Assembly (NCBI RefSeq): GCF_000733755.1 | Contig: NZ_JPOF01000001.1 | Coordinates: 414,001-478,000, forward strand | DNA length: 64,000 bases | Reading direction: 5' to 3' | DNA from: Lachnoclostridium phytofermentans | Lineage (GTDB): Bacteria; Bacillota; Clostridia; Lachnospirales; Lachnospiraceae | Shown here: positions 11,547 through 28,607 of the stretch, in pieces | Numbering within the stretch: the first letter of the stretch is position 1 | Layout: the number at the start of each line of letters is the position of its first letter | The notes under the pieces: generated by a model | Seen by the model: the letters and a program-made list of their open reading frames with translations, nothing else | The model's database searches: none | What the model was told of the DNA's origin: nothing | Translations under genes and position numbers: made by a program

Positions 11547-14141
11547 ATGTATTGTCAACATTGTGGGAAATTCACAGAGAATGTCGATGGGGTCTGTGAA
11601 ACGTGCCGTGATACCTTAGAGGCAACAAATGAAATGATAAAAGAATCACGGGATTTAGCGGATAACACACAAGAACCAAAAGTAATGATAGTGGAAAAAC
11701 AAGAGGAGAAAGAGGTAACAGAAGAAGAGATAACAAAAAAAGAATTAACAGAAGAAATATTATCAGCGAAGCAAGAGATTTTCGTAGAGACACAAGAATC
11801 AGTAATAGAAGAGAAATTAAGTGAAAATGAATCATCCAAAGAGGAAGAGAAGCAAGGCGAAAATAATACAAGTCTAAAAAAAGCTCTCTCTCCAAGTTTA
11901 AAAAATTTCCAACAATTTGGAATCCAGAAGTTAAATGATTTCGTAAAAGGTACTGGAAAAGAAATGATAAGTGTTTCAACGATAAAAGAATCAGCGTTTT
12001 TACTTGTTGCAACATTAATCTTATCAACATTATTATCGGTGGTTATAGCAATTATCGCGAATCTCATATTAAAGAATCAGATCAATTTATTGTGGGGTCA
12101 GATGGTAGGTTCCTATGTGGAAGACTCAAAAGGAGGATTCCTAACCTTTTATCGACTTTTACGAATGTCATATTTACATACGTTAAGATTATCTGTGTCG
12201 ACGATGGGCGGAAGTGTAGTATTAGGTATGAATGTACATATTTTGATATTAACATTGATTCCATTTGCATCAATGTTTATCGCTTGGAAACTGTTAAGTC
12301 ATCAGTCGATAAGGTCCTCCTTAAAATTTTTATTTTCTGAGGAACCTGTTTTTAAAACTAAAAAAGTATTACCAATAACACTGAATTTTAGCTTGGTTTT
12401 AGCTATATTATACTTTGCAACATCCTTCATCCGGGTGAATGTAGCGAAGAACGAATTATTTGCAATGAAATTATCCTATGGCGCACTGAGCTCCATTTTT
12501 GGAACAATCTTGGTTACCTTAATATCGTGTTACATCATTACTGGAATCTTAAAACTAAGAGATAGAAAAATACTGACAGCAGGAAGTGTTTTGTGGAGCT
12601 TAAAGCAATATTATATGAAATACAGTATTGGGGTTATCGTGGTATCTATCTTAATTATTCTGATAACTGTAATACGTTCTAATATGTGGAAACAAATAGG
12701 GACTGTTTTGCTTTCTCTACCGAATATATTTCTTATTGCAGCAAATTCATTATCTTTTGGTGGAATTCAGACAATTAACAGAGGAGAGGTAGATACCTTA
12801 AGAAGCTCATTAAGTGGAGTTCAAGTTGTATGTTCTATTTTATTGGCACTTACATGGTGTATTTTCCTTTGGTATCTGCTCTATCAGACTTATCTAAAAT
12901 TCGACAAATCGAATAAGAAGAATTACATAATAAATGTTGGAATCTTGTCTGGAATTATCCTAGTAATACAATTTGCTTTTTATTATATCTCAAAAGTGAG
13001 TATATCACTAAGCATGTTGGGAGAGGCAGAGGTAGGAGTAGGAATTAAAGTAAATATTCTCTTAAGTTTATTCGTACTGGTTCTAGTATCCGTAGGAGCT
13101 GCAGCTTGTGCTTATTACTTCCCGAATTTGCTTTATAAAAAGGGCAGTAAAGAGGAAGTATTATTAGTTGGAACATGGAAGCATCTTAATATGTCAGTAC
13201 TGATAGCATTATCGATCCTTGTATGTCTTACATTTCTTGTAATGACGAAGAAGCAATCTGGCTCTGTGGAAAGTGGCTCTTTTACTGGAAAAGAGAACTA
13301 TTCCAAAGAAGAAGCTTACACCATGATAGACCCGGAAAATATCGATGTTTTTTCCGACGGATTCGTATTTCGTGATTATAGCAGAATATACGCTTACCAA
13401 AAAGGTAAGGTGAAAAAAATTAGTCTTGATGAGGAATCATATTTTAGCGATTCTGATTATCATTTCTCCAAGACATCCGAACGCATATTAAAAGTTAGTC
13501 AGAATAGTGCTATGTTATTAGATAGTAAAGGGAAAGAGCTATATAAGCAAAAGGTCAGCTTTGATCAATTACTTTGTGCTACCACTGAATTTGATAAACT
13601 AGTGTTTTTAGTAGATGGAGATGTCACGTTATATGATAAAAAAGAGAATAATTTTACTGTATTAGATGGTATAACGAATTATGAATATGCCGATTTTTAT
13701 TTCGACGAATCAGATGAGAATCTGTATCTAGTGGATAGTTCTATCCGTAGCTACAATCTTAAGTCAAAAACTATGGAAGTAGTGAAGGAACAGACACCAG
13801 AATATATACTAGATTCTAAAGATGATTTCACAGCAAAACTTTATTTGGTGGATGCAGGTAAATTAGTTTCACCGGTTGGAGATACCAAGATCAGATATTA
13901 TGTTAGAAATATGATAAGAGAGTATGAATCCTATTGCGTCATTATAGAAAATGGGAAGGAAAGCCCTGTTCCCCTTCCAGATATGGTCTCTGCAGAAGCA
14001 ATCAATAGGGAAGGAACTAAGTTTTTAGTGACCTTTACTGAGTATGGGGATTACTACCTCTATGATGCAGAGAAAGCAGAATTGACGAATATCTCCACTC
14101 AGATTCGCTATCTAACATCAAACAAAAAAGTTGAGGGGTAA
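11547..14141 (+). CDS. zinc-ribbon polytopic membrane protein with extracytoplasmic repeat domain
   Basis: I do not recognise a named family. The 864-residue product starts with a zinc ribbon (Cys3, 6, 17, 20). A Glu/Lys-rich low-complexity segment follows (about 25-110), then about nine hydrophobic segments between 145 and 565. The C-terminal half (about 590-860) contains short beta-rich repeats of the form 'YDKKENNFTVLDG', 'SYNLKSKTMEVV' and 'YLYDAEKAELTNIS', suggesting a beta-propeller outside the membrane. The shape suggests an envelope sensor or transport-associated protein. AGGGA precedes ATG. The next gene, a membrane-anchored lipoprotein, starts 52 bp downstream and is probably cotranscribed. 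Confidence 0.7.
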   Translation: MYCQHCGKFTENVDGVCETCRDTLEATNEMIKESRDLADNTQEPKVMIVEKQEEKEVTEEEITKKELTEEILSAKQEIFVETQESVIEEKLSENESSKEEEKQGENNTSLKKALSPSLKNFQQFGIQKLNDFVKGTGKEMISVSTIKESAFLLVATLILSTLLSVVIAIIANLILKNQINLLWGQMVGSYVEDSKGGFLTFYRLLRMSYLHTLRLSVSTMGGSVVLGMNVHILILTLIPFASMFIAWKLLSHQSIRSSLKFLFSEEPVFKTKKVLPITLNFSLVLAILYFATSFIRVNVAKNELFAMKLSYGALSSIFGTILVTLISCYIITGILKLRDRKILTAGSVLWSLKQYYMKYSIGVIVVSILIILITVIRSNMWKQIGTVLLSLPNIFLIAANSLSFGGIQTINRGEVDTLRSSLSGVQVVCSILLALTWCIFLWYLLYQTYLKFDKSNKKNYIINVGILSGIILVIQFAFYYISKVSISLSMLGEAEVGVGIKVNILLSLFVLVLVSVGAAACAYYFPNLLYKKGSKEEVLLVGTWKHLNMSVLIALSILVCLTFLVMTKKQSGSVESGSFTGKENYSKEEAYTMIDPENIDVFSDGFVFRDYSRIYAYQKGKVKKISLDEESYFSDSDYHFSKTSERILKVSQNSAMLLDSKGKELYKQKVSFDQLLCATTEFDKLVFLVDGDVTLYDKKENNFTVLDGITNYEYADFYFDESDENLYLVDSSIRSYNLKSKTMEVVKEQTPEYILDSKDDFTAKLYLVDAGKLVSPVGDTKIRYYVRNMIREYESYCVIIENGKESPVPLPDMVSAEAINREGTKFLVTFTEYGDYYLYDAEKAELTNISTQIRYLTSNKKVEG

Positions 14142-14171
14142 GTTGGAAAGAATATATTTCTTTCCAACTTT
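14142..14171 (+). other. possible attenuator hairpin between the two envelope genes
   Basis: GTTGGAAAGAA pairs with TTCTTTCCAAC around a short AT loop, followed by only TTT. The stem lies between the upstream stop and the lipoprotein's AAAGGGG, so it may tune readthrough without stopping it. Confidence 0.4.
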
Positions 14172-14193
14172 AGAAAGGGGCATTGATATCAAT

Positions 14194-16002
14194 ATGAAAA
14201 AAATACAATTGTTTTTAGTATCTCTATTTTGTATGCTTGTGCTTTCTGCCTGTGGTGCTGAAATCACAACAACGACGAATATCAATAAAGATGGTTCTGG
14301 AGAGCTTATCGTAACTGCGGTAGCTTCCTCTTCCGAAGCAGAGTACCTGAATGGTGGTTTTGATGCATTAAATCAATTATTGCTAGATAAGGCACCTGAA
14401 GGGCTTGAGCTATCTGTAGTTTATGATGAAACCAATTCTGATTATACGTATTCTTATAAAATAGCATTTAAGGATTCAAATGACTATAATAATAAGATAG
14501 CTACACTGTTTGGAACCCAAGGTCTCGCAGAATTTACAGATACTTCCGATTATTTTACACATAAGATAATATATAAGGATTTAACCGATAAAGCACTTTT
14601 TATTGGTTGGGCTTTAAATGCTATTGATGAATCAGGAATTTGCAGTTATGATTCTTCTGAGATATATTCCTGGGGTTATCGTTATTTAAATTACGATGGA
14701 GAAGAAGTTTACTCTGGATATCAGGAACCTACCATGGAGAAGACGACAACTGTAGGTGTATCAAAGGTTAAGTGTTTTTCGGAGTATGATATTAATTCCA
14801 ATGCAAGAAAGACATTAGAAATATACCTAAATACTGAGGATCTCGTAGGGATAAAAGAAGATGATATACTTTCCTATTTTAAAAAATTTGATCAAAATGT
14901 AGAATACAATGCTACAACAGGTACGATAACTTATCGTTTGGATAATCTTGAAAAGATAAATCAATTCTTATTATCCGTTATGAATTCAGACGGAGAAAAT
15001 GATGTGTCAGAGCCACCGGTTAAGTTATCAGTTACGGATTCTTCTATTTTTGCTTTCTCTTATGAGTTAGAGGAATATTATAACCTTGGTAATCTTTTTA
15101 AAGCATTAAGGATGGATACCGATTATATTGATGTGTATTTGTCAGTGCCAGAAAATCTTAACTATGACTGGTATGATTTTACTTCTTACCAGGCTGCTAG
15201 TGAGGTAGCGGATGCAAAATATAATTATCAAGGTGCCTGTTATTATGATAGTTCTTTTAGCAGTAACTTTGAAGCAGAGCAGTCTGTTATGGTTAAGGAT
15301 ATTGATGTCAAATGTATCCTAGAAGATGATATGTCCGGAAAGCTAACAACTGAGTTTTCTTTTTTACCAAATGGCTGTGACATTGATGAGGCGAAATGTA
15401 AAGAGTTTTATAAAGACCTAGATCAGGAGATAGCTTATCAAGAGCAAGGAGACGCTGTGGTAGTTACCTTTACCAAGAAATTCGATAAAGGGGAAAGTTA
15501 TAGTGATAAATCTAACGTTTTGCAGGTGAAGGAGTCTTCTCTTTCTAACCGTAAAACTAAGGTTTATACTTTTGATCATGTGTTTATGTTATCGGGCTTA
15601 GTTCCAATGGATGATTGTGAAGTTAATTATAAGATAATGGTTCCAGATTCTCTAAAGGTAACGTACTACCATTCCAACGAGAAAGTTCTTACAGGAAAAG
15701 AAACGGAAAGAATTCAGAAGAATGGATATTATACAGAAAGTATATCAACCTATGGAGGAACTGTTTCGGTCTCGGTAGCAATAGAAAAAGCGAATGTATT
15801 GTTTTATGTTATCGTAGTTGTTATCGTCGTGGCATTAGTGGGAGCTGCTGGGGTAATAATATTTTTATTTCTTAGAAAAAATAAAGCCAGAAAAGTAGGA
15901 ATGGTGAAATCTGTAACTTCTATGGAAACTGTTAGTTCAGAGGAAATTGCTACTTCAAAGGAAACTACGAATCCTCAAGCAGAAGCTAAGGAAAATGAAT
16001 AG
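14194..16002 (+). CDS. LppM-like lipoprotein with C-terminal membrane anchor
   Basis: The 602-residue product starts with a lipoprotein signal (KKIQLFLVSLFCMLVLSACG). The N-terminal domain (EITTTTNINKDGSGELIVTA, about 20-140) resembles the LppM/DUF3153 fold, and similar beta-rich stretches recur near 185-280 and 385-530. A hydrophobic segment (YVIVVVIVVALVGAAGVIIF, about 550-575) and a basic tail follow, so it may be anchored at both ends. The function is unknown. The conserved Thr-rich start after the lipid Cys is typical of Clostridia 'IDEAL-like' lipoproteins annotated only as hypothetical. AAAGGGG about 13 bases upstream is the best ribosome binding site. It is probably operonic with the zinc-ribbon gene upstream. 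Confidence 0.7.
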   Translation: MKKIQLFLVSLFCMLVLSACGAEITTTTNINKDGSGELIVTAVASSSEAEYLNGGFDALNQLLLDKAPEGLELSVVYDETNSDYTYSYKIAFKDSNDYNNKIATLFGTQGLAEFTDTSDYFTHKIIYKDLTDKALFIGWALNAIDESGICSYDSSEIYSWGYRYLNYDGEEVYSGYQEPTMEKTTTVGVSKVKCFSEYDINSNARKTLEIYLNTEDLVGIKEDDILSYFKKFDQNVEYNATTGTITYRLDNLEKINQFLLSVMNSDGENDVSEPPVKLSVTDSSIFAFSYELEEYYNLGNLFKALRMDTDYIDVYLSVPENLNYDWYDFTSYQAASEVADAKYNYQGACYYDSSFSSNFEAEQSVMVKDIDVKCILEDDMSGKLTTEFSFLPNGCDIDEAKCKEFYKDLDQEIAYQEQGDAVVVTFTKKFDKGESYSDKSNVLQVKESSLSNRKTKVYTFDHVFMLSGLVPMDDCEVNYKIMVPDSLKVTYYHSNEKVLTGKETERIQKNGYYTESISTYGGTVSVSVAIEKANVLFYVIVVVIVVALVGAAGVIIFLFLRKNKARKVGMVKSVTSMETVSSEEIATSKETTNPQAEAKENE

Positions 16003-16292: not shown

Positions 16293-16961
16293 ATGCGGCA
16301 TCGGATATCGAATGTATTATGGGGCTTATTTTGGATGGCTCTTGGTGTTATAATTGCAGGAAATGTGTTTCACTGGTGGGATGTATCATTATTTTTCCCA
16401 GGATGGTGGACCTTGTTTTTAATCGTTCCTTGTGGTATCTCAATCATCAGTAATGGATTTGGAGGATTTTCTCTCATTGGTCTGGTAGTTGGTATTATGT
16501 TACTGTTAAACAGTCAGGGTATTTTCTTAGCAGATACCGTAAGAAAGCTTATTGTTCCTGTTGTTTTAATTATTATCGGACTTAATATTTTAGTACGTAC
16601 TGCATTTAATGGAAGCAGCAAAGTGAAGATACCGATACCAAAAGAATGTAGTTATGCAGCTACCTTTAGTGGGAATACGGTGCAATTTTCAAACCAACGA
16701 TTTCAAGGAGCAGAGTTAAATTCTATCTTTGGAGGCGTTAAACTTGATTTAAGAAGTGCTATTATTGAGGAGAATGTTTGTATTGATGCAACCTCAATCT
16801 TTGGTGGTATTGATATTTATGTTCCAGAAAATATTCGTGTTAAGGTATCTTCCAGCTCCTTCTTCGGTGGAGTAAGTAATCACCGCAGACGAGTATCAGG
16901 AGAAGTACCAACAATCTATATTAATGCGACTTGTATGTTTGGAGGTGTAGATATCCGATGA
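16293..16961 (+). CDS. LiaF-like envelope-stress membrane protein
   Basis: The 222-residue product has an N-terminal set of about three or four membrane helices (VLWGLFWMALGVIIAGNVF, WWTLFLIVPCGISII, SLIGLVVGIMLLL, LIVPVVLIIIGLNILV). It ends in a C-terminal LiaF-type beta domain with repeated FGG turns (NSIFGGVKLDLR, SIFGGIDIYVPENI, SFFGGV, CMFGGVDIR). In B. subtilis LiaF inhibits the LiaRS two-component system that senses cell-wall antibiotics. Here no LiaRS genes are adjacent. GGAGGAGG precedes ATG. The stop overlaps the next start as ATGA, so the two are translationally coupled. Confidence 0.82.
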   Translation: MRHRISNVLWGLFWMALGVIIAGNVFHWWDVSLFFPGWWTLFLIVPCGISIISNGFGGFSLIGLVVGIMLLLNSQGIFLADTVRKLIVPVVLIIIGLNILVRTAFNGSSKVKIPIPKECSYAATFSGNTVQFSNQRFQGAELNSIFGGVKLDLRSAIIEENVCIDATSIFGGIDIYVPENIRVKVSSSSFFGGVSNHRRRVSGEVPTIYINATCMFGGVDIR

Positions 16962-17866
16962 GTCCTTTACAAAGAGTGATTAAGTATTTTGCTATGGGGT
17001 TTGCAGCATTTCTTATGGTAGGTATTTTATCTAGCATTGTTGCTGTAGTATCCGGAGTTGGTTACGGATTTAACTCCTATGAAGATAATAAGAATTATGT
17101 TAGTTTTACTAAGGATTTTGACAATGTAAAAAATCTAAATATCTCTAATCATGATAAGAAGCTTACCATAGTAAGTGGTGATACCGAGAAGGTCATTGTA
17201 GAAGTGAAAAATGTACCAGATACTCTAGAGGTAAAGGTTACTTCTGATGGTACACTCGTAATCGAAGATAAGAATAGATTTTATATTTCCTGGATATTCG
17301 GTTTAGCAGGGGATTGGAACCATGATATGGAGATCCTTGTGACGGTACCGCGTGACTTTACTGCAGGAAGAGTTGAACTTGATGGTGGTTCCGCTGCTAT
17401 GGAGGTTGAAGATTTAACTGCGGATTATATGATTATTGATGGTGGTTCTGGAAGCTTTGTTGGGCGCAATCTATATGCTAAAAAGGCAAATATTAATTTT
17501 GGATCAGGATCAAACCGACTAGAATATGTGGAGTTTAAAAAAGGAAAGATGGATTGTGGCTCAGGGGATATAAAACTCCAGAACGCAATATTTACCGACG
17601 TTGAGATTGACGGTGGTTCAGGATCTCTCTCCTATTCCGGTCAATTGCTTGGAGAGACATACCTTGATGGTGGTAGTGGTAGAAATTCCTTTGAGTTAGT
17701 GGGAAAACGTGAGGATTACAGTATCGATTGTGACGGTGGTTCTGGCGGGTTATGGATTGACGGAAAAAGTGAAGATGATTATAAAGATCGAAATAGCGAT
17801 GCTAACAATGAAATAAGAATCGATGGCGGTTCTGGGCGGATTGTTATTGATTTTTATAGTGAATAA
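16958..17866 (+). CDS. DUF4097/LiaG-like beta-helical surface protein
   Basis: The 302-residue product has one N-terminal membrane helix (about 10-38) followed by an external DUF4097 domain. The domain is a ladder of repeats in which [ILC]DGGSG or GSG motifs recur every 20-30 residues (LDGGSAAM, IDGGSGSF, FGSGSN, CGSGDI, IDGGSGSL, LDGGSGRN, CDGGSGGL, IDGGSGRI). This fits a right-handed beta-helix like LiaG. GGAGGTG lies inside the end of the LiaF-like gene, and ATGA overlaps its stop, which selects this start over the ATG 27 bp upstream. It probably works with the LiaF-like partner in envelope homeostasis. Confidence 0.82.
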   Translation: MSPLQRVIKYFAMGFAAFLMVGILSSIVAVVSGVGYGFNSYEDNKNYVSFTKDFDNVKNLNISNHDKKLTIVSGDTEKVIVEVKNVPDTLEVKVTSDGTLVIEDKNRFYISWIFGLAGDWNHDMEILVTVPRDFTAGRVELDGGSAAMEVEDLTADYMIIDGGSGSFVGRNLYAKKANINFGSGSNRLEYVEFKKGKMDCGSGDIKLQNAIFTDVEIDGGSGSLSYSGQLLGETYLDGGSGRNSFELVGKREDYSIDCDGGSGGLWIDGKSEDDYKDRNSDANNEIRIDGGSGRIVIDFYSE

Positions 17867-20556: not shown

Positions 20557-20696
20557 TTTGTTGTAGGGCTATCTTTAATAAACCACCGGCTAGGCCGGTG
20601 GATCACAATGGCTTCTAGCATTTTCATAATAAAACTCCTTTGTTATAATAAGTGTGGGTCTCAAACCGCACTAAATATAACAAAGGAGGTATCCAA

Positions 20697-21166
20697 TTGG
20701 ATAAGAATACATTATCACATACAACATGGGAATGTAAATATCATATTGTTTTTGCACCGAAATTTAGAAGGCAGATAATTTATGGAAGTATAAAGGCAGA
20801 TGTTGCAAATATACTAAGTACATTGTGTAAAAGGAAAGGTGTAGAAATTATAGAGGCTGAATGCTGCAAAGATCACGTGCATATGCTAGTTAGAATACCA
20901 CCGAATATAAGCGTTTCGGAATTCATGGGGTATTTGAAGGGAAAAAGTTCATTGATGATATTTGATAGACATTCAAATTTAAATACAAATATGGAAATAG
21001 AAAATTCTGGTGTAGAGGATACTTTGTAGATACAGTTGGAAAAAATGCAAAGAAAATAGAAGAATACATCAGAAGCCAGTTGATGGATGACCAAGCAGAA
21101 GATCAACTAAGTTTGAAAGAATTTATTGACCCGTTCACGGGTGAGCCAGTAATAAAAGGCAAATAA
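20697..21166 (+). pseudogene. tnpA: IS200-type Y1 transposase TnpA, frameshifted
   Basis: Translation should begin at TTG 20697 after AAAGGAGG (DKNTLSHTTWECKYHIVFAP). The HUH motif HVHMLVRIPP is intact near residue 62. After about residue 95 the frame is lost at ATTTAAATACAAAT near 20979-20992. One missing A would restore KYKYGNRKFWCRGYFVDT, which carries the catalytic Tyr region, and the C-terminus KEFIDPFTGEPVIKGK that stops at 21166. With the missing base the product would be 156 residues, the normal IS200 length. As read, the frame stops at 21029 without the catalytic Tyr, so the copy should be inactive. Confidence 0.85.
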
Positions 21167-21379: not shown

Positions 21380-21408
21380 TTGAAAAGATTGTCACAAAAT
21401 GATATAAT
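21380..21408 (+). promoter_or_regulatory. promoter of the DUF5717/Hsp70-like operon
   Basis: TTGAAA at 21380-21385 and TATAAT at 21403-21408 are spaced by 17 bp, a near-consensus sigma-A promoter, directly downstream of the 23-bp repeats. Confidence 0.8.
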
Positions 21409-21450
21409 TATTGGAATAATGATATGGTAAAAAGGGCATGGGGTGAAACG

Positions 21451-24400
21451 ATGAAAGAGAAGATTGAGCAATTAGCAAAGGGTGTATTTGTCTATAATTT
21501 ACCTGAGATTATCCTCTCAGAAGAATCGCTAGAACTCAATGTTGAGTGTGGGAGTATTTATAGTGGGACCTTTATTATACGTAATAGTCATAATACTAGG
21601 ATGAAAGGTGTCTTATATTCTACCAATCGAAACTTACATATCGAGAATGATCGGTTTATTGGTGAAGTAACAACAATTCAGTATTGTTTTACAGCTATGT
21701 ATCAGGAGACTCTTAGCGATTATCAGGAAGAGATTCATATAATTTCAGATTGTGGTGAATTTGTACTTCCGGTTACGATACATATCACTTCGCCAAGTTG
21801 TGAATCTTCCATAGGAAAGATAAAGAACTTATTTGAATTTGCTGGACTAGCGCAGACAAATTGGGAAGAAGCGAAAGATGTTTTTCAATCAGAGAAATTC
21901 GCACAAGTGATAGCTTATTATGATAACCAATATCTATCACTCTATCAAGCACTCATAAAGAGTAGTTCTGCCAGCCAAGCACTCGAAGAGTTTCTAATTG
22001 CTACCCACAAAAAAGTACCTGCTGTATATCAGGTAGATAAAACAGAACTTAGCTATGATGCAGGTCCATATAACTTTATGGATAAGATCATGATCAAAAA
22101 GGAAGGCTGGGGGCACTCTGAAGCTATTGTCGCTACAGATGCGAAATTTCTTAAACTTCAGAGTAATACACTACCAACAGAGAGTTTTACAGCTGGTGAA
22201 GCAGAACTTAATTTTGTTGTACAAACAGAAGGAATGAAGGAAGGGATACATTGTGGCAACATCTATGTCGATGTCGCTTTGCAGCGATTTGTTATAAAAG
22301 TTAGCGTTCGATGTAGCAGACAAAATGTAGGTAGGCGAACTGCTTTACGAAAAGAGAAGTCTTGCTATGTAAAGCTGACAGAGAATTACTTAAACTTTCG
22401 CTTGGACAGGATTTCTTCATCGAAATATGTAAGTGAAGCAGAGAGTATGTTACTTAACTTACTATCTGGAGAAAAAGAAAATATACTTTTTGAATTATAC
22501 CACCTTCATCTTAAATTAATTTCAGGAAAAGAAGGGATGGTTACCGCAACTTTTGAGGCACTGGAGCAAAAGAAAGAGGAACTTAAGAAGACGGAACCAG
22601 TGGCATATGGAATTTTTCTATATTTAACAACATTACGCAAAAAAACAAATCAGGATACTCTTAGTATATTTCAAGAGGTAAGGGAATTGGCGGATGAATA
22701 TCCAAAAGAATTGTTTCTCTTTTGGTGTCAGTTATACTTAAATAAGTCGTATACTACAAATTCGGCAGAAAAATTCAAAGATATGAAGGAGCGTTTTGAG
22801 CAAGGGATTCATAGCCCAATCTTATATTATGAAGCAGCCCTTTTACTTCGTGAGGATACTCTTTTGTTAAGAGAGTTAGAAACGTTTGAATTACAAGTAA
22901 TCTCATTTGCTCTCAGAAATCACTTTTTGAAGAAAGAAACTGCAACTACGGTAGCTTATTTGGCAAGCAAGTGTAAGGTTCCTCACAGACTTTTACTTAA
23001 AATATTGAACCAGATCTATGAACAATTTGAATTAAAGGATGCTCTCTATGCGATGATAAGTATCTTGATACGAGGGCATAAGAGAGAAACTCACTATCAT
23101 CGTTATTATAAGCTTGGAATGGAACAGCAGCTAAGAATTACTGAACTTCCAGAATACTATATTTATAGTATGGGAGAGGAGTATCAAGAGATACATCCTG
23201 CAGTAATCTCATACTTTTCTTACGAGAATAAGCTTCCAGATAGAAAAAAAGCGTTCTATTATGCTTGTTTACTAACCAAACATAGTGATAATTTGTCTTT
23301 TTTAGAACAATATCGCGTGGAAATATTACAGTTTTTAAAACGTCAGCTGCTTGCGGGTGTATTTAATCGCCATCTGATGGTTCTGGCAGATGCATTACTT
23401 CCGAATACACCAGTAGACACAGAACTTGCTGAAATGATACCTAAAATTGCGTTTATTCATGAAGTAACTTGTGAAAATCCCAATATTAAGAGTGTTGCTA
23501 TTGTTCACAAGGAGTTACAGGAGGAATGTATTGTTCCATTAATAGAGGGTCATGCTTTTGTGAATCTCTATACAGATCAAGCGCAGATATTTTTCATTGA
23601 TTATAGCGAGAAGCGTTATTATACTTTGATTTCGTACACTTTAAAGAAGTTGACTCATCTAACACCTTTATTAGAAACTTGTTATTCAATAAACCCTGAT
23701 CAAGCGGAATTAATTTTATATTTATCAGAGAAAGCACAATTTTATCAAAAGTTTGATGAGTATACAATTGAGCTAAGAAAGAGAGTAGCACAGCTTTCAA
23801 CGTTAACCAAGGAATACCGAAGAGATTTTGTTCAAACGCTAATACATTACTATTATGATAATTTTGAAGGTGAAATCTTAGAAAGTTATCTAAAGAATAT
23901 TGATTTAAAGGTATTTGAGCAACAAAGTCGGTATAAGTTGATTGATTTTATGATACTGCGTGAATTATATCCAATTGCACTTCATGCGATGGAGGAGCTA
24001 GGGTATGAAGGCGTTGAGCTAAAGAAGCTTCAGAAATTATGTTATCGTTTGCTAACGAATGCAGATGGTGTACCGCAAAATAAAGAGATCTTATTGCAAA
24101 TAACATTTTACTTATTTAAGAAAGGGAAGTATGAAGAAGCAAGCCTTTCTTACTTGGTGAAATATTTTTATGGCACGACAGCCCAGATGTATGAATTATG
24201 GAAAATAGCTAAAGAAAATGGCATAGATACCCTTGATTTAGAAGAGCGCCTTTTGGGACAAATGTTATTTGCAGAAAGCTATGTTGGGAATGCGATGCAG
24301 GTATTTTTATCCTATTATAATAAAGGCTGTAATAAGAAGTTAATCCGTGCATTTCTTTCATTTTATAGTTATAAATATCTGGTACGTGACCGTGTTACAG

Positions 24401-25008
24401 AAACAGAATTGTTTGAGGTTATCCGAAAAGAACTAAATTATGAGGAGAATGACGTAGCATTACTTGCAATATTGAAGCACTATTCCACGAAGGAACAGTT
24501 AACAGATAATGAAGTGAAATTTATTGATTATCATTTGAGTAGATTGGTTCAGAAGGGAGTTGTACTACCATTTTTTAAAGAGTTTCAAAGAAATATGAGC
24601 ATTCCTCAGCAGATGTTTGATAAATGTTATGTAGAATATCGTACAAATCCCCAACATCGCGTTATGATACACTATTCTTATGGAAATGAGAATGGAGAAG
24701 ATGCTTTTATCACAGAAGAAATGCAAAATCAGTGTTATGGTATCTACGTTAAAGAATTTATACTGTTCTATAACGAAGAATTGCAGTATTATATTACAGA
24801 AATTACTGAACAAGGAGAAGAGATAACAGAAAGTAAAACTTTAGTTGGAAATCTTGAAGAAGAGACAACGAAAGAAAACTGTTATACGTGGCTAAATCAT
24901 ATTATCGAAGCGAGAGAGTTAAAGGATGAGGCAACTGTTTTGCAACTTTTAGATACTTATATAAAGCAAAAATATACAATTGATACATTATTCGGACCTA
25001 TTCACTAG
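21451..25008 (+). CDS. large Ig-like plus helical-solenoid protein (DUF5717-like)
   Basis: The 1,185-residue product has two N-terminal beta-sandwich, Ig-like domains. One is about 15-110 (LSEESLELNVECGSIYSGTF..., ending VLPVTIHI). The other is about 185-295 (YQVDKTELSYDAGPYNFMDK..., ending FVIKVSVRC). The remaining 850 residues are a Leu/Tyr/Glu-rich helical solenoid of TPR character. There is no signal peptide or membrane helix. It resembles the Lachnospiraceae family DUF5717, which has no known function. GGGGTG at 21440-21445 supports ATG 21451. An ATG at 21424 lies only about 10 bases after the predicted transcription start. It is the first gene of a four-gene operon whose gaps are 14-15 bp. 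Confidence 0.75.
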   Translation: MKEKIEQLAKGVFVYNLPEIILSEESLELNVECGSIYSGTFIIRNSHNTRMKGVLYSTNRNLHIENDRFIGEVTTIQYCFTAMYQETLSDYQEEIHIISDCGEFVLPVTIHITSPSCESSIGKIKNLFEFAGLAQTNWEEAKDVFQSEKFAQVIAYYDNQYLSLYQALIKSSSASQALEEFLIATHKKVPAVYQVDKTELSYDAGPYNFMDKIMIKKEGWGHSEAIVATDAKFLKLQSNTLPTESFTAGEAELNFVVQTEGMKEGIHCGNIYVDVALQRFVIKVSVRCSRQNVGRRTALRKEKSCYVKLTENYLNFRLDRISSSKYVSEAESMLLNLLSGEKENILFELYHLHLKLISGKEGMVTATFEALEQKKEELKKTEPVAYGIFLYLTTLRKKTNQDTLSIFQEVRELADEYPKELFLFWCQLYLNKSYTTNSAEKFKDMKERFEQGIHSPILYYEAALLLREDTLLLRELETFELQVISFALRNHFLKKETATTVAYLASKCKVPHRLLLKILNQIYEQFELKDALYAMISILIRGHKRETHYHRYYKLGMEQQLRITELPEYYIYSMGEEYQEIHPAVISYFSYENKLPDRKKAFYYACLLTKHSDNLSFLEQYRVEILQFLKRQLLAGVFNRHLMVLADALLPNTPVDTELAEMIPKIAFIHEVTCENPNIKSVAIVHKELQEECIVPLIEGHAFVNLYTDQAQIFFIDYSEKRYYTLISYTLKKLTHLTPLLETCYSINPDQAELILYLSEKAQFYQKFDEYTIELRKRVAQLSTLTKEYRRDFVQTLIHYYYDNFEGEILESYLKNIDLKVFEQQSRYKLIDFMILRELYPIALHAMEELGYEGVELKKLQKLCYRLLTNADGVPQNKEILLQITFYLFKKGKYEEASLSYLVKYFYGTTAQMYELWKIAKENGIDTLDLEERLLGQMLFAESYVGNAMQVFLSYYNKGCNKKLIRAFLSFYSYKYLVRDRVTETELFEVIRKELNYEENDVALLAILKHYSTKEQLTDNEVKFIDYHLSRLVQKGVVLPFFKEFQRNMSIPQQMFDKCYVEYRTNPQHRVMIHYSYGNENGEDAFITEEMQNQCYGIYVKEFILFYNEELQYYITEITEQGEEITESKTLVGNLEEETTKENCYTWLNHIIEARELKDEATVLQLLDTYIKQKYTIDTLFGPIH

Positions 25009-25023
25009 AGAGAGGAGGAAACC

Positions 25024-26286
25024 ATGGGGGAAGGAAAACAATTATTACTTGGTTTTGAGATTACCAATGAAACCTCACAAATTTATTATTATCAGATGCA
25101 GAACCAAGATGCTATTCCTATTTTTATGACACCAAACCAATCCAATCCATTGTTTCCTACCTGCTTAGCAGTCAAGGAATCCACAAAGGAATGGATGATA
25201 GGGGAAGAGGCACTGCGTCTTTTTGATCTTGGGGGGGCAGCCTTAATTGATAATTTACTTCATAAAGCAGAAAACAAGGAAAGTGTAACAGTTTACGGAG
25301 CAACCTTCACCCCGGAAATGCTACTCACGAAGTTTTTTAAAAGAGCATTCATGGTAGTAAGGCAACAGTTTCTAAATAGCAGCATACAAAAGTTAGTAAT
25401 TACCGTACCTAATCTTACACCGACCATGACAGAACTTATTTATCAAAGCTTAGAGGAATTAGGGCTTCTTAAGTGTAGGGTACATATTATAAGTCAAGTG
25501 CAAAGCTATATGTATTATGTACTTAGCCAGAAGGCGGAAATTTGGGCACATGATGTTTCATTGTTTACTTACGATGAAACAGGATTGTTTTATTATAATC
25601 TAACCGTTAATCGAAGAATGCAGCCATACGCCATCATTGTGAATCGTATGGATTTAAGTAATGAACTGACACCAGAGCTATTAGAACAAGAACCGCTAGA
25701 GCGTGTTGTGTACCGTCTGGAAAAGTTAATCAATCAAGTGTTGTATAAACGTTTAACAAGTGCTGTGTTTGTAACAGGAAAGGGATTTGAAGGAAACTGG
25801 ATTCGTGAGGTGTTAATTCGTTTAAGTAAATCACGCCGTGTTTTTATAGGACAGAATTTATATGCAAAGGGAGCATGCCTAGCTGCGAAGGGATTTATTG
25901 ATGATAGCTTCTCAAATTATTTATTCCTTAGTGACGAGATGATTACATCTACTATCTCTTTACGACTATATGAGAATGCAAAAGAAATAGATTATGTAAT
26001 GGTAAAAGCGGGAACTCCATGGTGGAAAGCAAACAAAACAGTTACAGTTATACTTGATCAGACGAAGGAATTATCTTTTACAGTAACCAATCTTTTAAAT
26101 AGGGAGCCACTTCATGAGGTACTATCATTGGACGGACTCTTAGAGAGAGAAAATAAGACGATTCGTCTTTCGATAACGGTTCACTTTATAGATCGATTGA
26201 CAGCGCTTGTTACTGTTCGTGATGTTGGATTTGGCGTTTTTTATGAGACAAATTATCGTATTTGGGAGCAAATGCTTACCTTATAG
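25024..26286 (+). CDS. degenerate Hsp70/actin-fold protein (DUF5716-like)
   Basis: The 420-residue product follows the Hsp70 ATPase order. LGFEITNETSQ (9-19) stands where phosphate-1 GIDLGTTNS is expected, and WMIGEEAL (57-64) matches Hsp70 IGEEA. LVITVPN (124-130) matches VITVPA, and VSLFTYDETG (178-187) sits where the DLGGGT loop belongs. VFVTGKGFEGNWIREVL (248-264) and YAKGACLAAKG (280-290) match the adenosine motif VxLxGG...VR and the terminal AxGAAxxA. Key phosphate-loop glycines and the catalytic Asp/Thr are altered, so ATP hydrolysis is doubtful. A short beta-rich tail replaces the usual substrate-binding domain. The order with DUF5717 matches what I recall of DUF5716. GGAGG precedes ATG. 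Confidence 0.75.
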   Translation: MGEGKQLLLGFEITNETSQIYYYQMQNQDAIPIFMTPNQSNPLFPTCLAVKESTKEWMIGEEALRLFDLGGAALIDNLLHKAENKESVTVYGATFTPEMLLTKFFKRAFMVVRQQFLNSSIQKLVITVPNLTPTMTELIYQSLEELGLLKCRVHIISQVQSYMYYVLSQKAEIWAHDVSLFTYDETGLFYYNLTVNRRMQPYAIIVNRMDLSNELTPELLEQEPLERVVYRLEKLINQVLYKRLTSAVFVTGKGFEGNWIREVLIRLSKSRRVFIGQNLYAKGACLAAKGFIDDSFSNYLFLSDEMITSTISLRLYENAKEIDYVMVKAGTPWWKANKTVTVILDQTKELSFTVTNLLNREPLHEVLSLDGLLERENKTIRLSITVHFIDRLTALVTVRDVGFGVFYETNYRIWEQMLTL

Positions 26287-26300
26287 ACAGGAGGATAGCG

Positions 26301-27137
26301 ATGGGAAAATTAATTCTTTGTACAGGGGATACGGCAAAAGAACCATATTGTTTCAAGCTAACAGGTACTCTAGTCTATACGATTGAAGAGCTTTGCTACT
26401 ATATCTGTCATAATCTGGAAACGATTAGTGAGGAACTATTTAATCAGGAGTTAATCGTCTTTATTAGAGAAGAATTAGGCCTAAAAGAGAGGGCAGATTT
26501 TCTTGAGGAATTGCTGCGAAAGAAAGCTGGTATTAAGGATCTAGTGGTTAGTATTCTTTGTAGTTGTGACTTATATGATAAGAACGAGATAAATCAACTA
26601 CTTGCTGAAATTGATATTTTATTTCGATTAACTCCAGTACAAAGAAAAAAAAGACAAGCGGATTATTGTATCTCCCATCATCAGTATAAAGAAGCGAGAA
26701 AAGTATACATGGCTATTTTAAATAGTAGGGAGTTTACGGAGTTAACTAGTGAAGAATATGGAGATATCCTTCATAATTTGGGAGTCTTAGATACGAGAAC
26801 TGGTGCTTTTAAAGTAGCTGCAGAAAAATTCCGAGAGGCATACGAGCGAAATCATAATGAGATGTCGCTAAAACAATATCTTTATGCATTAAGGTGTAGT
26901 AATCAGGATGCTTTGTTTGAAAGAGAAATTAAATTGCTTGTGGATAATAGAGAATTATTAAAACAAATAGAAGAAGAGCTTTATCATGCCTTGGATGCCT
27001 CGGAATATACTGGACTTTATGCCGAGGTGATAAGACTTTCAGAGCTAAAAGAAAGTGGTAAGTTCACAGAGTTTTATGAACGCTTGAACGAGCTTATTAC
27101 TCAGCTAAAAACAGAATACCGCAAGGATAGTATATAG
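26301..27137 (+). CDS. TPR-like cytoplasmic protein of the DUF5717 operon
   Basis: The 278-residue product starts at ATG 26301 behind AGGAGG; the in-frame ATG 39 bp upstream lies inside the previous gene. The N-terminal third contains LILCTGDTAKEPYCFKLTGT and a helical region. From about 115 it shows two to three TPR-like helix pairs (ADYCISHHQYKEARKVYMAI, GDILHNLGVLDTRTGAFKVA, FREAYERNHNEMSLKQYLYA). No membrane segment is seen. It probably acts as an adaptor for the Hsp70-like neighbour, which is inference from TPR-Hsp70 pairings elsewhere. The C-terminal Glu/Leu-rich helices could form a coiled coil. Confidence 0.65.
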   Translation: MGKLILCTGDTAKEPYCFKLTGTLVYTIEELCYYICHNLETISEELFNQELIVFIREELGLKERADFLEELLRKKAGIKDLVVSILCSCDLYDKNEINQLLAEIDILFRLTPVQRKKRQADYCISHHQYKEARKVYMAILNSREFTELTSEEYGDILHNLGVLDTRTGAFKVAAEKFREAYERNHNEMSLKQYLYALRCSNQDALFEREIKLLVDNRELLKQIEEELYHALDASEYTGLYAEVIRLSELKESGKFTEFYERLNELITQLKTEYRKDSI

Positions 27138-27151
27138 AAAAGAGGAATGAT

Positions 27152-28441
27152 ATGGGTTTATTTTCATCTCGAAAGAAGAATATAGAAGACGAACGAATAG
27201 AAACTACAGATTTTGTTCAGATGTCTGTGGAGGAGGCGTTAAAAAAGTATGCAAGTTCCTCCCTGGATCAATCTCAAGATCTTATTGAGGAGGAGAATCT
27301 TTCTTTTCGAGAGAAGAGGAAAAGGAAAAAAGAGCAGGCAAAGAATAAGAAAAATAGTAAGCTACTAGAAACAAAAGGCTTGAATCCATTTCAAGGTGAA
27401 TTAAAAGAGGAAGACATCGGAAATGTGATTAAGGACCATAAAAGCCAGATACTTGAGTTAACTGCTCAGCTAGAAGAAACGAAACAAGAGTATGAAGCAG
27501 TGACTGCCTATCTCTCTGATATTCAAAAAATTGAGCAAATTCCAGATGGTCAAAAAAAGCCTTATTTGGATGCGGCTAATAAAATAATCAACTTTGAAAA
27601 AGAGAGAAAGATGTATCTAAACATCGATCGTAAGCTATCAGAATCTCAGTTTGCAGAGATGAACAGGTTGGAGGAGGATATTAAGCGAGAACTTCCAAAG
27701 TTAAGGGAGCAGGAACAATATCAGCAACTGATTAAAGAAGATCTTCGTCAGCTTGAGGGAGAGAAAGGTGTATTAAATTACGACAGAGAACAGGCAATTT
27801 CGAAAACAAAATTTCTAAAAAAATTAGCAAGTTGGGGCTTTATTATGATTCTTTTCTTATTTGCAGGATTATTCTTATTGGATAGTAAGGTAGAGGTTAA
27901 TTTATCGTTGCCAATAATAATGACTGGTTTTTTTGGAGTTTTTCTCGTTGCCTATATCATCTACGATACTAGAAGATGCTCCTATAAGCTAAAGATGGCA
28001 GAACTAAAATTAAATCGTGCGGTTGCATTAATTAATAAAGTAAAATTAAAGTATGTAAATTGTACTGCAACCTTAGAATATTCTTATGAGAAATACCATA
28101 CCACTGGATACCAAGAGCTTATGGTTAGATATCAATTGTTTTTAAAAGAGAGGGAAGAATTAGAGCGATTAGAGCAAAATACCGAACTATTGGGTTACTA
28201 TCAAGAAGAGTTAGTGAAGGAACTTCGAAAGCATGGGATAGATGATGCAGAAGTCTGGGGATATCAAGCAGATGCCTTACTTGATAAAAAAGAGATGGTT
28301 GAGGTTCGTCACCGACTTAATGTGCGTAGACAAAAGCTTCGTGAGCGTATCGATTTATGTGCGAAACAACTGGATTTAGTTCGTAATTCATTGGAAGGAA
28401 TACGAACTAGAAATCCTGGGTATGAGAGTGAAATGATATAG
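27152..28441 (+). CDS. coiled-coil membrane protein of the DUF5717 operon
   Basis: This 429-residue protein of unknown family has a basic N-terminal region (RKRKKEQAKNKK, about 55-68). A long coiled coil follows (about 95-222), then two closely spaced membrane helices (about 227-243 and 251-271, WGFIMILFLFAGLFLL and LPIIMTGFFGVFLVAYII). A second coiled coil runs from about 280 to the end. Both soluble parts should face the cytoplasm, which would give the operon's proteins a membrane anchor. AGAGG precedes ATG, 14 bp after the TPR gene. It is the last gene, followed by a strong hairpin. Confidence 0.7.
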   Translation: MGLFSSRKKNIEDERIETTDFVQMSVEEALKKYASSSLDQSQDLIEEENLSFREKRKRKKEQAKNKKNSKLLETKGLNPFQGELKEEDIGNVIKDHKSQILELTAQLEETKQEYEAVTAYLSDIQKIEQIPDGQKKPYLDAANKIINFEKERKMYLNIDRKLSESQFAEMNRLEEDIKRELPKLREQEQYQQLIKEDLRQLEGEKGVLNYDREQAISKTKFLKKLASWGFIMILFLFAGLFLLDSKVEVNLSLPIIMTGFFGVFLVAYIIYDTRRCSYKLKMAELKLNRAVALINKVKLKYVNCTATLEYSYEKYHTTGYQELMVRYQLFLKEREELERLEQNTELLGYYQEELVKELRKHGIDDAEVWGYQADALLDKKEMVEVRHRLNVRRQKLRERIDLCAKQLDLVRNSLEGIRTRNPGYESEMI

Positions 28442-28514: not shown

Positions 28515-28607
28515 GCGTCTTAAAATTAAGTGAACTCCGTTATCAGACAAACGATATTGTCTAAGGAAAGGGATTCACTTTATATTAAGACGCATTTTTT
28601 GTATTTT
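28515..28607. terminator. bidirectional terminator hairpin
   Basis: GCGTCTTAAAATTAAGTGAA pairs with TTCACTTTATATTAAGACGC with two bulges and an AT-rich apical loop, followed by ATTTTTT on the plus strand. It ends the four-gene operon and lies just before the 3' end of the convergent TetR gene. Confidence 0.8.

Follow-up and report, generated by a model that had tools for sequence, protein, structure and literature searches.

A 64,000-nucleotide stretch of the genome of Lachnoclostridium phytofermentans (contig NZ_JPOF01000001.1, positions 414,001 to 478,000; hereafter the window) contains, at positions 21451-28441, four genes that form an operon, bounded by a promoter and a terminator of its own (Table 1). 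Successive genes are separated by 15, 14, and 14 bp, and a Shine-Dalgarno sequence lies ahead of each of them (GGGGTGA at 21440, AGGAGG at 25013, AGGAGG at 26289, and AGAGGA at 27141). The promoter is the sole site in the region to match 11 of the 12 consensus positions and ranks first among the 30 promoter-like matches there, a number equal to that obtained from shuffled sequence (mean 30.8). The stability of the hairpin at the end of the operon was matched by none of 200 shuffles. Homologues of gene 1 start at the same point as the start listed here, and an in-frame ATG at 21424 was rejected as its start because there is no ribosome binding site ahead of it. No CIRCE-like heat-shock operator was found in 42 upstream regions, the best candidate having 7 mismatches out of 18, and none of the four products matched a named family in NCBIfam.

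Table 1. Features of the four-gene operon (positions are those of the window; aa, amino acids; ORF, open reading frame; dG, free energy).
Feature	Position	Strand	Description
Promoter, sigma-A type	21380-21408	+	TTGAAA-17-TATAAT, TG ahead of -10; 11/12 consensus
Gene 1, DUF5717	21451-25008	+	1185 aa ORF
Gene 2, DUF5716 pseudo-Hsp70	25024-26286	+	420 aa ORF
Gene 3, TPR protein	26301-27137	+	278 aa ORF
Gene 4, coiled-coil membrane protein	27152-28441	+	429 aa ORF
Hairpin with U tail, intrinsic-terminator-like, operon end	about 28515-28606	+	dG -34.8 kcal/mol, z -7.1

A preliminary description of this DNA, made from the sequence alone, had proposed such an operon, with gaps of 14-15 bp, ribosome binding sites, and a strong promoter, and had assigned to it an Ig-like/solenoid protein of 1,185 residues, a divergent Hsp70-fold protein, a TPR-like protein, and a two-helix coiled-coil membrane protein, the first two belonging to the DUF5717 and DUF5716 families. 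The layout of the locus and the domain and structural evidence that follows bear out each of these assignments.

The gene 2 product is a clear member of DUF5716_C (PF18980; E = 2e-94, 316 bits against a curated cut-off of 34.7), and its AlphaFold2 model has a predicted local distance difference test (pLDDT) score of 92.7 and a predicted template modelling (pTM) score of 0.89. Foldseek searches with this model ranked DnaK at the top (E = 4e-19), VIA-align superposed 387 residues of it on DnaK 7kru with a Z of 23.0 and a root-mean-square deviation (rmsd) of 5.8, and Ssz1 structures were also among the top VIA-align matches (Z 22). At the sequence level, the DUF5716 family profile matched DnaK sequences with an E of 1e-15. 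The modelling confirms a predicted Hsp70 fold, comprising an actin-like nucleotide-binding domain (NBD) and the beta part of the substrate-binding domain (SBD-beta), in a form so degenerate that we term the protein a pseudo-Hsp70. In alignment with Escherichia coli DnaK, the Lachnospiraceae DUF5716 proteins have all of K70, E171, T199, and D201 replaced, and their phosphate-loop glycines are lost or scattered. Lobe IIB (the GrpE contact and adenine side) is missing from DUF5716, leaving a gap of about 72 residues relative to DnaK, and the SBD-alpha lid is missing as well, as the gene 2 protein stops after SBD-beta. Because the catalytic residues, lobe IIB, and lid have been lost and DnaK is the only other Hsp70 of this genome, it is very unlikely that the Lachnospiraceae operon acts alone as an ATP-driven chaperone. 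The most conserved positions of DUF5716 (G252, F255, W259, G283, and A284) fall where the adenosine-side motif of Hsp70 used to be, and it therefore seems that a new conserved site took over this location. The best-conserved stretch of the family is the motif GxGFExxW...RRVFxGxN...GA (residues 250-286 of the product), possibly a site for a ligand or partner. No relative of gene 2 was found in viral contigs.

The gene 1 product matches both DUF5717_N (PF18984; E = 7e-282, 938 bits) and DUF5717 (PF18983; E = 1e-96, 324 bits), far above the cut-off of 25. Its AlphaFold2 model (pLDDT 85.8) has two Ig-like domains (residues ~19-124 and 190-290) that are followed by a helical solenoid (293-667), a beta insert (669-733), a second solenoid (738-1047), and a C-terminal beta domain (1059-1132), and the protein has no hydrophobic segment. 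Foldseek and VIA-align agree that the Ig domains resemble those of HYDIN, the SPD-2/ASH domain of CEP192, and MSP domains; a single domain aligned to HYDIN 2e6j over 102 residues (Z 11.4, rmsd 3.4) and to the CEP192 ASH domain 6fvi over 98 residues (Z 10.4, rmsd 2.0). As FimC-type pilus chaperones and S-layer domains match about equally well, the Ig domains of the model are assigned to the PapD-like Ig fold, which is not proof of membership in the ASH family. By its predicted structure, the gene 1 product is shown as a large soluble scaffold in which a solenoid follows two ASH-like Ig domains. In some Lachnospiraceae the DUF5717 protein is only ~850-900 residues long and has no N-terminal Ig domains (e.g., L098:5493-8186 and L086:5887-8448).

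That axonemal and centrosomal scaffold proteins such as HYDIN and CEP192 are among the nearest folds of gene 1, and that an Hsp70 (7n6g_6K) is found in the same ciliary structure, raises the question of whether the four proteins build a fixed, membrane-associated structure with a part in division, shape, or polar organization and no handling of clients. The near-universal presence of the operon in Lachnospiraceae (below) would suit such a role. However, Ig folds of the ASH/PapD/MSP kind and TPR solenoids serve many purposes, and the descent of the operon from a set of Hsp70s equipped with GrpE, for which we argue below, points to client handling, so that we regard a purely structural or morphogenetic scaffold as distinctly unlikely.

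Gene 3 is present in a single copy in its own genome and encodes a protein with a family-specific N-terminal region (containing the motif VYSxEELCY) followed by a short TPR array. TPR_2 was matched by 19 of the 26 members of the family, the gene 3 product itself scoring below the Pfam cut-off. The gene 4 product has no Pfam match above cut-off and is predicted to consist of a coiled coil, a two-helix transmembrane hairpin (residues ~221-273), and a second coiled coil; among the four products it alone has strongly hydrophobic segments, two of them, lying close together.

To place the operon among relatives, the 21 Lachnospiraceae loci considered were the window itself and 20 retrieved loci, in one of which (L082) gene 2 was counted by its domain match in place, because an antisense frame overlapping it had masked its entry in the ORF list. 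Genes 1, 2, and 3 follow one another in this order at all 21, and DUF5717 and DUF5716 genes are adjacent and on the same strand in 48 of the 48 Lachnospiraceae genomes of our sample of the order, so that the synteny on which the preliminary description had depended is evident across relatives. DUF5717 was found in 243 of 250 Lachnospiraceae genomes and in 198 of the 201 that were of good quality, and the operon was not found in 14 control model genomes. Above-cut-off matches in a phylum-wide sample were confined to Lachnospiraceae; that sample included few genomes of the order, so it shows no more than that these proteins are absent or rare outside the order. The preliminary view that the two families are Lachnospiraceae-specific did not survive this comparison: DUF5717 also occurs in 97 of 247 sampled genomes of the order outside Lachnospiraceae (about 40%), DUF5716 likewise extends to other families, and the operon there is larger.

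This larger operon was found in Defluviitaleaceae, Epulonipiscium, and Vallitaleaceae, including the cultured Defluviitalea phaphyphila. Its order is Ig / DUF5717 / Hsp70 (H1) / GrpE fusion / DUF5716 (H2) / Hsp70 (H3) / Hsp70-VWA (HV) / TPR, sometimes followed by the membrane gene, and no rearranged example was seen over 87 loci, many of which lie on contigs that carry part of the operon only. The products have approximate lengths of 558 (H1), 600 (GrpE fusion), 515 (H2), 545 (H3), and 692 residues (HV), and Pfam places Hsp70 in H1, H3, and HV, GrpE in the C-terminal part of the fusion, and VWA at the end of HV. Relative to E. coli DnaK, the catalytic residues are kept at 98-100% in H1, H3, and HV, and the Hsp70 match in these three ends after SBD-beta, i.e., they are lid-less, with the VWA domain of HV standing where the lid would be. 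H2 is already without K70, T199, and D201. The TPR protein of the extended operon (390 residues) is homologous to gene 3. The Ig and DUF5717 parts are separate genes at most extended loci and a single gene in the window, a fusion that supports their physical association. The VWA part of HV (L062:1498-2139, alignment A3) is unusually conserved, with a mean column identity of 77% over 14 loci, and its nearest relatives among the matches listed outside these clostridia are VWA proteins of Planctomycetia (34-38%).

The closest described neighbourhood to such a gene set is the HSP70-GrpE theme of the GAP1-N2 GTPase-centric conflict systems (eLife 2020, PMC7159879), which are found in Firmicutes among others and likewise bring together HSP70, GrpE, Ig-like/FNIII and TPR proteins, and proteins with two transmembrane helices (2TM), including 2TM SLATT effectors. 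By analogy, the operon could be a device for conflict, defence, or programmed death in which gene 4 provides a SLATT-like pore effector, and one weak SLATT match was indeed obtained for the gene 4 product (E = 8.5e-5). That match, however, is the only one among 16 members of the gene 4 family and has no counterpart with a Pfam SLATT model, and we rejected a SLATT effector as a trait of the family; a GAP1-N2 system was rejected also, as the GAP1-N2 protein was found in 0 of 10 genomes. Genes 1-3 had no match to PADLOC defence families, and the vertical inheritance and near-universality of this core locus are unlike defence islands. Unlike GAP1-N2 systems, moreover, the extended operon has three Hsp70s besides the pseudo-Hsp70, one of them fused to VWA. 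A conflict device is accordingly a very improbable reading of the operon.

Each of seven extended genomes tested has exactly one copy of the membrane gene. Where it lies outside the operon it directly adjoins valS in L186, L187, and L189, and in several lineages valS comes after the operon itself; both arrangements would follow from an ancestral layout in which the membrane gene stood between the operon and valS. On these comparisons the membrane gene belongs to the system. In L186 (2266-9444) and L187 (4010-11204) the neighbourhood of valS and the membrane gene also includes a folC-like gene, a gene for a zinc-ribbon TPR protein that recurs in L189 and L191, and an apparent spoIIAA-spoIIAB-sigF, these names coming from inspection of the sequences and the link being one of position only.

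The relationship between the two forms of the operon was examined in a tree of 89 Hsp70 sequences rooted on DnaK. H1, H3, and HV each form one clade, as do the DUF5716 proteins of Lachnospiraceae (support 99), whose sister is the DUF5716 of L079, a relative with the full system (support 100). The Lachnospiraceae clade is nested within that of the extended DUF5716 proteins, which in turn has active H3 as its sister, and the DUF5717 tree is concordant, again placing L079 next to Lachnospiraceae (support 100). From this nesting we infer that the duplication by which an active Hsp70 gave rise to DUF5716 is older than Lachnospiraceae, and that H3 should have been present in their ancestor too. None of H1, H3, and HV lies beside the operon in Lachnospiraceae; an extra Hsp70 is present elsewhere in the genome in 4 of 12 of them. 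A second GrpE was found in all seven extended genomes and, above cut-off, in 0 of 4 Lachnospiraceae genomes. The four-gene form is thus most likely a reduction, Lachnospiraceae having lost the ATPases and GrpE.

Like the housekeeping DnaK-DnaJ-GrpE system, the extended operon has a GrpE domain of its own and Hsp70s whose ATPase residues are intact, but these Hsp70s do not have the SBD-alpha lid. Neither an active Hsp70 nor a GrpE or DnaJ is encoded by the Lachnospiraceae form itself. A closer parallel for the pseudo-Hsp70 may be Ssz1 of the yeast ribosome-associated complex (RAC), an Hsp70 that has no lid, binds ATP and hydrolyses little or none of it, pairs at the ribosome with a J-domain protein, and, held by its partner on this platform, docks the active Hsp70 Ssb (PMC8476630). 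DUF5716 shares the lid-less Hsp70 fold, and unlike Ssz1 it has neither lobe IIB nor the phosphate loops and its operon encodes no J-domain protein. We suggest that in the ancestral machine, tethered at the membrane, ATP-cycling Hsp70s and their own GrpE would have loaded or remodelled a client on the scaffold, and that the pseudo-Hsp70 would have been the fixed docking partner of these cycling Hsp70s, on the model of Ssz1 and Ssb. Lachnospiraceae would have dropped the cycling parts, and the pseudo-Hsp70, the solenoid, and the TPR protein would stay as a static platform for holding or assembling clients, held on the cytoplasmic side of the membrane by gene 4 in those genomes that have it. The operon would then encode an ATP-independent adaptor scaffold built on a pseudo-Hsp70, usually with a putative membrane tether, and be the core that survives from an ancestral machine with several Hsp70s, a reading to which we give a probability of about one half.

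The likeness to Ssz1 may also be taken further, in that the scaffolded pseudo-Hsp70 could recruit DnaK (and with it DnaJ and GrpE) to certain clients and so work by borrowed ATPase activity. Ssz1, which is also tethered, docks its canonical Hsp70 through the NBD (PMC8476630), it is among the best structural matches of the gene 2 model, and DnaK and GrpE are kept in all Lachnospiraceae genomes tested. Few of the old NBD residues are conserved in DUF5716, however, lobe IIB is gone, the operon's own Hsp70 partners have been lost, and an operator of the heat-shock type was not found, which leads us to consider such a proxy chaperone rather unlikely.

Several observations weigh against an adaptor scaffold reduced from a larger machine. 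The pTM of the gene 1 model is only 0.57, leaving the overall shape of the scaffold unsure. Gene 4 is present at 14 of the 21 Lachnospiraceae loci and missing from 7 (six of these genomes are without any copy, and the seventh has a marginal partial match only), which means that the operon can do without membrane tethering. Among extended genomes, many carry the membrane gene away from the operon, in some cases next to valS. Pfam scans detected no J-domain in the four window proteins or in the proteins of the extended operon. In addition, the losses are deduced from trees with long branches, of which the tree program warned. As to the preliminary proposal of a scaffold or chaperone complex with a membrane anchor, its scaffold part is favoured by the architecture of gene 1, an ATP-driven Hsp70 chaperone acting alone is the part we would set aside, and the anchor holds in so far as gene 4 encodes a membrane protein, albeit one that is not universal.

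The near-universal retention of the operon among good-quality Lachnospiraceae genomes, its sigma-A type promoter, and the lack of a heat-shock operator fit, and together suggest, a housekeeping role. There is perhaps an even chance that an ATP-driven machine of eight to nine genes arose in the ancestor of much of the order and became an ATP-free scaffold of the core genome in Lachnospiraceae, which are among the most abundant bacteria of the human gut. The literature searched held no description of the operon, of the extended system, or of a function for DUF5716 or DUF5717, in agreement with the preliminary description. Genes 2 and 1 belong clearly to the Pfam families DUF5716 (PF18980) and DUF5717 (PF18983/PF18984), which stand in Pfam as separate entries with no function. 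The present operon unites them with two families that have no Pfam model, and all four would trace to an Hsp70 machine, which would give them a common origin and a function open to testing. The parts are of known kinds, whereas for their assembly the literature searched offered no description, and the extended machine is the more novel element. The operon would be a naturally occurring example of an Hsp70 machine kept after the loss of its ATPases, which bears on the role of pseudo-Hsp70s, and the extended operon, with its three dedicated lid-less Hsp70s and own GrpE, is an Hsp70 system in its own right.

With regard to the surroundings of the operon in the window, two adjoining large ORFs at 11547-14141 and 14131-16002 (864 and 623 residues) have no Pfam or NCBIfam match and are followed by LiaF-like and DUF4097 genes (16293-17866), a cluster that is possibly envelope-related. 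Directly upstream of the operon, at 20652-21029, is an IS200-like transposase gene (Y1_Tnp, E = 1.4e-28) whose frame stops early and seems to resume in another frame, and which is probably a broken copy.

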